From Acidithiobacillus sp. (GTDB lineage Bacteria; Pseudomonadota; Gammaproteobacteria; Acidithiobacillales; Acidithiobacillaceae): a DNA stretch of 63,276 nt. The stretch's first letter is position 1, and each line of letters begins with the position of its first letter. This document shows, piece after piece, positions 13,969 to 16,480 of this stretch. Where the stretch lies: NCBI RefSeq assembly GCF_023256195.1, contig NZ_JAGDWX010000024.1:1-63276 (forward strand), written 5' to 3'. Position numbers and translations under genes: made by a program. The notes beneath the pieces are model-generated. The model had not been told where the DNA came from, searched no databases, and worked only from the letters and a program-made list of their open reading frames with translations.

Positions 13969-14838
13969 TCAGTATAAGGTTCTCGCCAAGCGAGTGCGAT
14001 ACTTTTCCACGAGGGGATGGCGGGCCCCCAGTACCGTGAAGATCTGCAGCAGCGTCCGCCGACCGAGATCGTCGCCATACTGCCGATGGTCGCGTACCAG
14101 TTCCAGCAGCTCTTCCATGGCTGGCTCCTCCTGTCCCTGCAGGAGGAGGCGCAGCGCGTGCAGGTAGAGTGCCTGCGCCCGCTCGTCGCCCTGCGCTTCA
14201 CGCAGGCGCCGCTCCAACTCGGCCATGGGGGGAGCGCTCTGGACAGCCTGGGAGAATTCCAGCAGGGCCTTCAAAGCCTGCACCTCATCTTCCAGCTGAA
14301 AGGCCGGACTCATGGCGGCGATGTCGGCGTTGACCTCTTCCCAGCGTCCTTGGGCACTGTGCAGGCGGGCCAGGCTCAGGCGAGCCGCATCGTTGCGGGG
14401 GTTGGCCGTCAGCGCTTCGCGAAAGAGCTTCTCGGCCTCGTCTTCCCGTCCTGCCTCCATGGCCGCCAGCGCTGCCTGGCGCAGATCGTCTCCGGGGGGT
14501 GGAACGATCCCCTCCAGAAACTTGCGCACAGCCGACTCGGGCAGGGCACCGGTGAATTCGTCTACCACCTTGCCGTCGCGGAAGGCTTTCACAGCGGGAA
14601 TACCGCGTACCTGAAAGCTTCGCGACAGTTCTGGATTCTCATCGGAGTTGACCTTGGCCAGGAGGAAGGCACCTGCCATTTCTTCTGCCAGCTTCTCGAG
14701 GACGGGGCCGAGGGCACGGCAAGGCCCGCACCAGGGCGCCCAGAAGTCCACGACTACCGGCCTCCGCTTCGATTCCTCGAGGACCGCGGCGGCGAAATTG
14801 TCCTCACGGACATCGATGACCAAAGCTTGCGCCGTCAT
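13969..14838 (-). CDS. Thioredoxin-TPR co-chaperone (CnoX/YbbN family)
   Basis: This 289-residue protein has an N-terminal thioredoxin domain with the active site WCGPC (Cys37, Cys40) and a C-terminal tetratricopeptide-like helical region. CnoX proteins protect unfolded proteins from oxidative aggregation and hand them to GroEL or DnaK. Some CnoX proteins have lost the dicysteine; here both cysteines are kept, so redox activity is plausible. The tail contains typical helical pairs such as AAMEAGREDEAEKLFREAL. It is cytosolic, as no signal peptide is seen. It is followed downstream by the HtrA protease gene on the same strand. Confidence 0.9.
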   Translation of the reverse strand: MTAQALVIDVREDNFAAAVLEESKRRPVVVDFWAPWCGPCRALGPVLEKLAEEMAGAFLLAKVNSDENPELSRSFQVRGIPAVKAFRDGKVVDEFTGALPESAVRKFLEGIVPPPGDDLRQAALAAMEAGREDEAEKLFREALTANPRNDAARLSLARLHSAQGRWEEVNADIAAMSPAFQLEDEVQALKALLEFSQAVQSAPPMAELERRLREAQGDERAQALYLHALRLLLQGQEEPAMEELLELVRDHRQYGDDLGRRTLLQIFTVLGARHPLVEKYRTRLARTLY

Positions 14839-14950
14839 ATGTACTCCCTGAAAACGATGGCATGTCTCACTGCATGACTGAGCCGATCATGGTAGGACCT
14901 CCGTCGGTGATTCTCAATGCATGGAGCGGATGGCGCGATGGCGGTCGCCG

Positions 14951-15505
14951 TCATTGCGGCCGCAGTCTTGCCAATTCGTCCAGAATGCCCTGCAGTAGCT
15001 GCCGGGCGTTGGCGCTCATACCCCGCGCCAGCCGGGCGTAGTCTTCTTGGCCGCGTGACAGTGGCCCGAGGGCAGCGCCAATACGCGCCATGTCGCCCCC
15101 GGCCCGCTCCATCTGGCTGGCCATCTGCCCAAGCCAGGCCAGCGCTTGGCTATCGCCCTGGCGCGCGGCGTGTACTACGCTGGCAATACCGGGAGCGGCA
15201 AGACTGGGGTCTGCGCCCTGATCCAGGGCGGGCAAGCTGTGCCGGTCCTGCAGTCCATTCAGGATGCTCTCAGTGATGACCCGGTCTTCTTCGTCCAGGC
15301 CCTCCAGCAAGGCGGGATCGCGTTGCCCGGCGAGGATCCGCCGCAGGATCTGCACCAGCTCACCCCAGCCGTTGCTGGCTGCCGTCTGTAGGTGTGGCTC
15401 CAGCGCCTTCTGCTCCGCCGGGTTCTGGCAGGCAGCCACCACCATATGGATCAGGCGGGCGTGGGCGCGCCGTATCTGTTCGCGACGCTCGGGCAAGCTG
15501 GACAT
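14951..15505 (-). CDS. Unknown helical protein (184 residues)
   Basis: The chosen start is the ATG giving MSSLPERREQ; an earlier in-frame start at 15577 would add a low-complexity leader that overlaps the divergent promoter region. The protein is helical, with Gln/Arg/Ala-rich segments (HARLIHMVVAACQNP, LVQILRRILAGQRDP), no membrane segment and no recognised domain. It starts from a strong-looking minus-strand promoter that overlaps the promoter of the plus-strand membrane protein. Function unknown. Confidence 0.65.
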   Translation of the reverse strand: MSSLPERREQIRRAHARLIHMVVAACQNPAEQKALEPHLQTAASNGWGELVQILRRILAGQRDPALLEGLDEEDRVITESILNGLQDRHSLPALDQGADPSLAAPGIASVVHAARQGDSQALAWLGQMASQMERAGGDMARIGAALGPLSRGQEDYARLARGMSANARQLLQGILDELARLRPQ

Positions 15506-15586
15506 CCTTCCTCCGCATTGATCGGCCACCGTTGCCGCGCCACGGCCAGGTGGTGTGTGCGCCGGGATGGGCGGCACTTAAGCTCT

Positions 15587-15615
15587 TTGAGTTTGTAGCC
15601 CGCCTTCTCTAGAAT
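15587..15615 (+). promoter_or_regulatory. Plus-strand promoter for the membrane protein gene
   Basis: TTGAGT (15587-15592) and TAGAAT (15610-15615) are spaced by 17 bases, with a predicted start near 15622 and the gene beginning about 24 bases later. It is superimposed on a minus-strand promoter. Confidence 0.6.
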
Positions 15616-15620
15616 GTCAA
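15592..15620 (-). promoter_or_regulatory. Minus-strand promoter for the 184-residue protein gene
   Basis: On the minus strand TTGACA (15620-15615), a perfect -35 box, is followed after 17 bases by TACAAA (15597-15592). Each box touches or overlaps a box of the plus-strand promoter, so both cannot be occupied at once. Confidence 0.6.
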
Positions 15621-15645
15621 AGCTAGCAAGGCTGGGGGGTGCACC

Positions 15646-16419
15646 TTGGGGTGGCAGTGGGTCAGTAGGATGGTGTCCTGGGTCGAGGGTGGCGCGGCCA
15701 TCGTGGCAGCGCGACCGCGCGCCTGGGCACTTTTTGCCCTGTCCGCCGTGGCCGTGGCGGCCATTCCCTTCCCCAGCTGGCTCATGGATGCCATCGCTCC
15801 CATCGGGCTGCTCCTCGGGCTGCGTCTGGCCGGCCGCTGTGAGGGAGAGGAGTACAGCGCCACGCAGCTGCGCCACGCCCTGGAGGTAGCGGTGCTCTGG
15901 GGTATGTTGTTGGCCGTCTTCGGCATGCTGTTCAGCTTTGGTCAGGAGACGGTTATCCTCGCCGCCTTGCTCGCGGGCGTGGATGGGCACTGGCAGATGC
16001 CGAGCTCCGGCGGTTTTCTGGATTGGTGGTTCGGTCTTGGGGAGCGCCTTTCCGATCTGGCCCTGATGCCCTATTTCTGGTTCTCTCCGGCCTTTTTTGG
16101 AGTGGCCCTGGCGTTGCACAAGGGACACGGCTGGATCGAGTCGGAGGTGGAGACGACTCTGGCGCTCATTTTCCGACCCGAGGTTCGCGATCCCCTCATC
16201 GCGCTATGGGCCATCGTGCTTTTGAGCAATCTTTTTCTCCCCCAGTTTTCCCAGGTCTGGTTGGGACTGCTGGTGTGGGTGCTCGGCCCGCCCGTGGTCT
16301 TTGTCGCCTATCAGGATATCTTTGCCAACAAGCGCAAGCCGCCGCGCAAACGGGAACCGGCGCGCAAGGCCTCGGCCCTGGCCCAGCCGGTTCTGCGCCC
16401 AGTGCGGGCCAAAGGTTGA
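15646..16419 (+). CDS. Multi-pass inner-membrane protein of unknown function
   Basis: This protein of about 257 residues has at least five hydrophobic segments (for example LFALSAVAVAAIPF, APIGLLLGLRLAG, WGMLLAVFGMLFSF, IVLLSNLFL) and a basic C-terminal tail rich in Lys, Arg and Pro. I give the TTG start that follows a GGGGGG purine run; an ATG 24 bases further in is also possible. I do not recognise the family. Its promoter is shared back to back with that of the unknown minus-strand gene. It lies upstream of glyA but probably has its own transcript. Confidence 0.75.
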   Translation: MGWQWVSRMVSWVEGGAAIVAARPRAWALFALSAVAVAAIPFPSWLMDAIAPIGLLLGLRLAGRCEGEEYSATQLRHALEVAVLWGMLLAVFGMLFSFGQETVILAALLAGVDGHWQMPSSGGFLDWWFGLGERLSDLALMPYFWFSPAFFGVALALHKGHGWIESEVETTLALIFRPEVRDPLIALWAIVLLSNLFLPQFSQVWLGLLVWVLGPPVVFVAYQDIFANKRKPPRKREPARKASALAQPVLRPVRAKG

Positions 16420-16480
16420 ACGCGGATCTTGTTGCCCGCGGACATGAAAAGAATTCACGACGAGGTGCAAAAAAACGCCC

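Follow-up and report, generated by a model that had tools for sequence, protein, structure and literature searches.

A probable bidirectional sigma-70-type promoter made of two superimposed divergent promoters in Acidithiobacillus and its relatives

Overlapping divergent promoters have been described, in the literature consulted here, in single systems. In Tn10, the tetA and tetR genes are served by overlapping divergent promoters within one short intergenic region, under the control of the TetR repressor and its operators. On the Bacillus subtilis plasmid pLS20, the divergent sigma-A promoters Pc and Pr are superimposed, and both starts were mapped by primer extension (PMC4207663). A further class consists of bidirectional promoters with a shared -10 element, whose divergent starts are given as 7-25 bp apart and most often 18 (PMC10268837, PMC12825309). 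For these shared -10 promoters, simultaneous binding in both directions has been called sterically implausible, and the same source states that basal transcription from five E. coli bidirectional promoters was too low for substantial competition, the opposite RNA falling only once transcription in one direction was raised (PMC12825309). We also considered as a parallel the 36-nt two-way fragment of a geminivirus and set it aside: its -10 elements overlap, so that its geometry is different (PMC12907893).

Here we analyze a 140-bp intergenic region in a contig of Acidithiobacillus sp., an acidophilic sulfur bacterium (the window: the whole stretch of 63,276 nucleotides), in which two promoter-like sequences facing in opposite directions lie on almost the same bases. 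The features are as follows (window coordinates):

Between the ATG at 15505 (minus strand) and the TTG at 15646 (plus strand): 140-bp intergenic region, which contains the putative divergent promoter block
14951-15505, minus strand: gene of a 184-aa protein, ATG start, without Pfam or NCBIfam match
15646-16419, plus strand: gene of a 257-aa predicted membrane protein, TTG start, without Pfam or NCBIfam match
15587-15592, plus strand: plus -35 box TTGAGT, from the sequence and the promoter scan, invariant in 10 of 10 genomes
15610-15615, plus strand: plus -10 box TAGAAT, from the sequence and the promoter scan, invariant in 10 of 10 genomes
15615-15620, minus strand (read 15620-15615): minus -35 box TTGACA, from the sequence, 6/6 consensus, whole in 9 of 10 genomes
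15592-15597, minus strand (read 15597-15592): minus -10 box TACAAA, from the sequence, 4/6 consensus, lacking the final T, whole in 9 of 10 genomes
15586-15621: conserved block of 36 bases in the 10-genome alignment, with which a gapped alignment agrees; putative core of the superimposed divergent promoters
15585-15622: imperfect inverted repeat with arms at 15585-15598 and 15609-15622
15622, plus strand: predicted transcription start, placed 7 bp after the -10 box, with the TTG 24 nt further on
15585, minus strand: predicted transcription start, placed 7 bp after the -10 box, with the ATG 80 nt further on

The earlier note had read a plus promoter, TTGAGT-17-TAGAAT, and a minus promoter, TTGACA-17-TACAAA, in almost the same 34 bases, with the -10 box of each promoter touching or overlapping the -35 box of the other. 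This reading is exact: both spacers are 17 bp, the joint footprint of the two promoters is 15587-15620 (34 bp), and one base is shared on each side, with 15592 common to the plus -35 and the minus -10 and 15615 common to the plus -10 and the minus -35. Measured against the sigma-70 consensus (TTGACA, a spacer of 16-18, TATAAT), the plus promoter matches at 9 of 12 positions and the minus promoter at 10 of 12, so that each strand has a sigma-70 likeness of its own. The minus -10 ends in A, where the sigma-70 -10 has its final T, a departure that may make the minus promoter weak or activator-dependent. The same base explains why the automatic promoter scan lists the plus promoter only: the scan requires the final T. 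The two-fold pseudo-symmetry of promoter DNA is present as the inverted repeat, whose arms are 14 nt each, stand 10 nt apart and are complementary at 11 of 14 positions (79%). At the shared base 15592 neither promoter has the consensus letter, and still all ten genomes that carry the block keep it unchanged.

The 257-aa membrane protein is encoded in all 29 Acidithiobacillaceae genomes and found no match in the two order outgroups searched. Its structure model, built from 8 sequences, is useless (mean pLDDT 39). Two genomes (G024, contig C74; G027, contig C377) hold a distant second copy of this protein, at 37% identity. The 184-aa protein yielded a weak single-sequence model (mean pLDDT 63), for which there was no PDB match at E≤0.001. 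Behind the 184-aa gene, on the minus strand, follows a gene of a thioredoxin-TPR protein (window 13969-15505 for the two genes), and in the order outgroup G029 (L057) a thioredoxin-like frame lies near the 184-aa gene as well; the linkage of the two genes may be older than the Acidithiobacillaceae.

At 16445-16457 of the window, upstream of glyA, stands a separate symmetric site, TGAA-N5-TTCA, both halves of which show no variation among the 8 aligned g1 and g4 genomes (8 of 8). It fits the MetR box, although chance alone could account for a single match in the window (0.5 expected).

To follow the block through the family, we searched the 29 Acidithiobacillaceae genomes, in groups g1 to g4, with a 22-base pattern that holds all box bases. 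The block was found in 10 of 29 genomes: in both genomes of genus g1, in all eight of g4 and in none of the 19 of g2 and g3. Nine of the ten show zero mismatches at the 22 fixed positions, while the remaining one, G009, has three, all among the ten minus-only positions and none among the twelve plus-box positions. Exact matches to the plus-promoter pattern occur in those 10 genomes only, out of 57.

In an alignment of the ten genomes anchored on the plus promoter, all genomes, or all but one, agree at every column of 15586-15597 and 15610-15621. Within the 12-base spacer between the two box clusters, 4 of 12 columns are invariant in all ten genomes (15599, 15604, 15605 and 15607); promoter function does not call for their conservation, which would be compatible with a regulator. 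Beyond 15586-15621, on either side, similarity is close to random: between G000 and the eight g4 genomes, identity is 0.76-0.91 in the core but only 0.21-0.40 on its left and 0.19-0.33 on its right. As a control, we aligned the glyA upstream region, start codon included, from the 8 of 10 block genomes that yielded the anchor motif. With 30 invariant columns in 8 genomes, the control exceeds the 25 that the ten genomes of the block alignment have in common, but its longest run of columns missing at most one genome is 6, against 13 for the block. The glyA total is thus higher but scattered, so that it is clustering, and not the total count, that sets the block apart. A glyA tree from 30 of 33 matching genomes joins g2 and g3 and leaves g1, the two parts of g4 and g2+g3 without a branching order; judged by this, the origin of the block may go back to that of the family.

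The start codons are compatible with the predicted transcription starts. Past the predicted plus start, an aligned TTG or GTG follows after 24-33 nt in 10 of 10 genomes, and four g4 genomes have an in-frame ATG as well, 11-19 nt past it. On the other side, candidate minus start codons in g4 lie 14-47 nt past the predicted minus start (the value of 47 belongs to the broken copy of G019), and in g1 the aligned minus ATG lies 80 and 86 nt past it, with nearer in-frame starts present. The g4 genes are so close that hardly any other non-coding DNA is left over for either promoter, and both promoters must therefore overlap or lie in coding DNA. Among the literature matches listed, none was by its title an Acidithiobacillus start-site map, and none of those listed for overlapping, divergent or bidirectional promoters named A. 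caldus.

We consider it quite likely, from sequence comparison, that 15586-15621 is a functional bidirectional sigma-70-type promoter for both genes, composed of two superimposed divergent promoters with near two-fold symmetry. The ground for two functional promoters is that both box sets are kept in nine of the ten block genomes in exactly the same register, which is also the outcome of the conservation check that the earlier note had proposed. RNA polymerase would bind the block in either orientation, not in both at once. Facing right, the complex would transcribe the gene of the 257-aa membrane protein from about 15622; facing left, it would transcribe the 184-aa gene from about 15585, in a transcript that perhaps includes the thioredoxin-TPR gene. 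Activity in both directions is suggested by the conserved boxes, and exclusive binding of the polymerase is plausible on steric grounds, as has been said of the shared -10 promoters (PMC12825309). Against the two-way reading we count the missing final T of the minus -10, the invariance of base 15592 in spite of its non-consensus letter, the four invariant spacer bases, the higher total of invariant columns in the glyA control and the lack of a peak at spacing 12 in 369 class genomes (see below).

The relatives serve as natural controls. In 9 of the 10 block genomes, an open 184-aa gene stands head to head with the membrane gene. Two genomes break the link between the block and the 184-aa gene, in opposite directions, and we count both against a two-way promoter: in G019 (contig C59, L009), a genome that is 61% complete, the block is intact while the 184-aa gene was not found, its frames being interrupted so that it looks broken; in G009, an open 184-aa gene stands next to drifted minus boxes (plus 9/12, minus 7/12). 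At this site in G009 (contig C25, 48138-48171; L022, L043), a minus-strand TATGAT abuts the plus -10.

In g2 the two genes have other neighbors: at three loci (L034, L041, L046) the 184-aa gene comes after a frame that we take, from its translation, to be uvrA-like, and at two (L014, L062) the membrane gene adjoins one that is presumably metX-like, again going by the translation. We scanned the upstream regions in 18 of the 19 g2 and g3 genomes (in G028, which was left out, the gene is cut by contig ends), considering the single best overlapping minus match per row. The best minus match overlapping the best plus match reaches at most 8/12 in these 18 genomes and is never in the observed register, whereas nine of the ten g1 and g4 genomes have an overlapping minus match of 10/12, at one and the same offset. 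Of the 18 genomes, 16 have a best plus match of 8/12 or better; a match of just 8/12 may be chance, and several of the best plus matches lie away from any promoter visible by eye. Such unpaired relatives without the minus boxes offer a natural test of whether superposition is selected for the coupling of the genes or for mere compactness.

The dyad might instead be the operator of a dimeric transcription factor acting on the plus promoter, with the minus likeness as a by-product. The complementarity of the arms would suit such a site, as would a spacer that is partly conserved beyond what spacing alone needs. The arms, however, are almost wholly composed of the four hexamers, and the asymmetric pairs 15591/15616, 15592/15615 and 15595/15612 are unchanged in 9 of 9 full-block genomes, a constancy that a symmetric operator would presumably not need. 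A second copy did not appear in the own genome (1.98 Mb): a symmetric pattern of 16 fixed bases, with up to three mismatches, hit only here (control 0), and a regulon defined by the right arm plus spacer was rejected, with one other place at 3 mismatches against 1 in the control. Neither neighbor is recognizable as a DNA-binding protein by Pfam, by NCBIfam or, for the 184-aa protein, by its weak model. We regard an operator as unlikely.

The same symmetric architecture was sought more widely. With a strict symmetric pattern at spacings of 7-17, a search of 369 class genomes gave 23 places in 20 genomes, two of them at spacing 12 (G000 and G201), one of which is the window itself; the pattern read backwards gave 9 places, and across the 369 genomes there was no peak at spacing 12. 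Genome-wide use of the interlocked architecture was accordingly rejected, the own genome having no second copy.

It seems quite improbable that the plus promoter alone is active and that the minus boxes are kept as its discriminator and spacer. The invariance of the plus boxes in all ten genomes, next to minus boxes that vary in G009, is what this explanation would predict, and the weak minus -10 fits it too. Against it, 9 of 16 g2 upstream regions have a plus promoter of 9-10/12 at a distance of 71-77 nt from the aligned gene start; the discriminator and spacer of these promoters, which perhaps share descent with the one studied here, are different. In g4, the 184-aa gene is without other conserved upstream DNA.

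We counted as a pair one promoter of at least 10/12 overlapping a divergent one of at least 9/12, each hexamer matching at 4/6 or better. In the 63-kb window, the sole overlapping divergent pair under this definition is that at 15587-15620; 100 dinucleotide shuffles of the window gave a mean of 0.08 pairs (largest 2), none in the observed register. A chance overlap without function is very improbable: single promoter matches of at least 9/12 are indeed common in the window (14 and 11 on the two strands), but 2000 shuffles of the 140-bp intergenic region gave 0 such pairs, and the pair is conserved in nine of ten block genomes of two genera between flanks that are near random.

We return to the bidirectional promoter and to its likely consequence for the two genes. 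From mutually exclusive occupancy, the earlier note had proposed that the membrane protein and the 184-aa protein may be expressed as alternatives. The superposition of two functional promoters is strengthened by conservation, but expression as alternatives does not follow, since no competition was seen at basal activity in the five E. coli bidirectional promoters mentioned above. Given the low basal strength that we infer, the two genes would probably be co-expressed weakly in ordinary conditions and not be strict alternatives. The base 15592 would fit weak promoters in being invariant and non-consensus for both, as far as one base can indicate. A further idea, which we put forward tentatively and hold to be doubtful, is that selection acts on the interlock itself: one polymerase site would fix a weak, mutually limiting ratio of the two genes, 15592 would be preserved because it keeps both promoters too weak for polymerases to compete, and in G009 the lost minus boxes would have been replaced by TATGAT, with a switch from the interlocked to a nearly shared -10 geometry.

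How, then, does this locus compare with the described systems? With Tn10 tetA/tetR, the likeness is that of overlapping divergent promoters in a short intergenic region. With the shared -10 class of the Grainger group, the locus has in common a pseudo-symmetrical DNA able to engage RNA polymerase in two ways, often between divergent genes (PMC12825309, PMC10268837). Unlike in that class, the -10 boxes here are 12 bp apart without overlap, and each shared base belongs to a -10 and a -35; with predicted starts that lie about 37 bp apart, we do not assign the locus to it. The nearest described case found is pLS20 Pc/Pr, where likewise the -10 of each promoter lies on the opposite-strand -35 of its partner (PMC4207663). 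Core boxes set on the core of the opposite strand are found here as well, in the same register in nine of the ten block genomes. The pLS20 boxes, in the assignment favored by the authors, fall exactly on one another, and the weak Pr needs the regulator RcoLS20, encoded beside it (PMC4207663); at the present locus the boxes have a one-base interlock, and two genera have retained the site. The kind of promoter is thus already known, and its conservation is unusual: next to the single systems described, the locus is a candidate overlapping divergent promoter of which two genera have preserved both box sets, amid non-coding DNA that has turned over.
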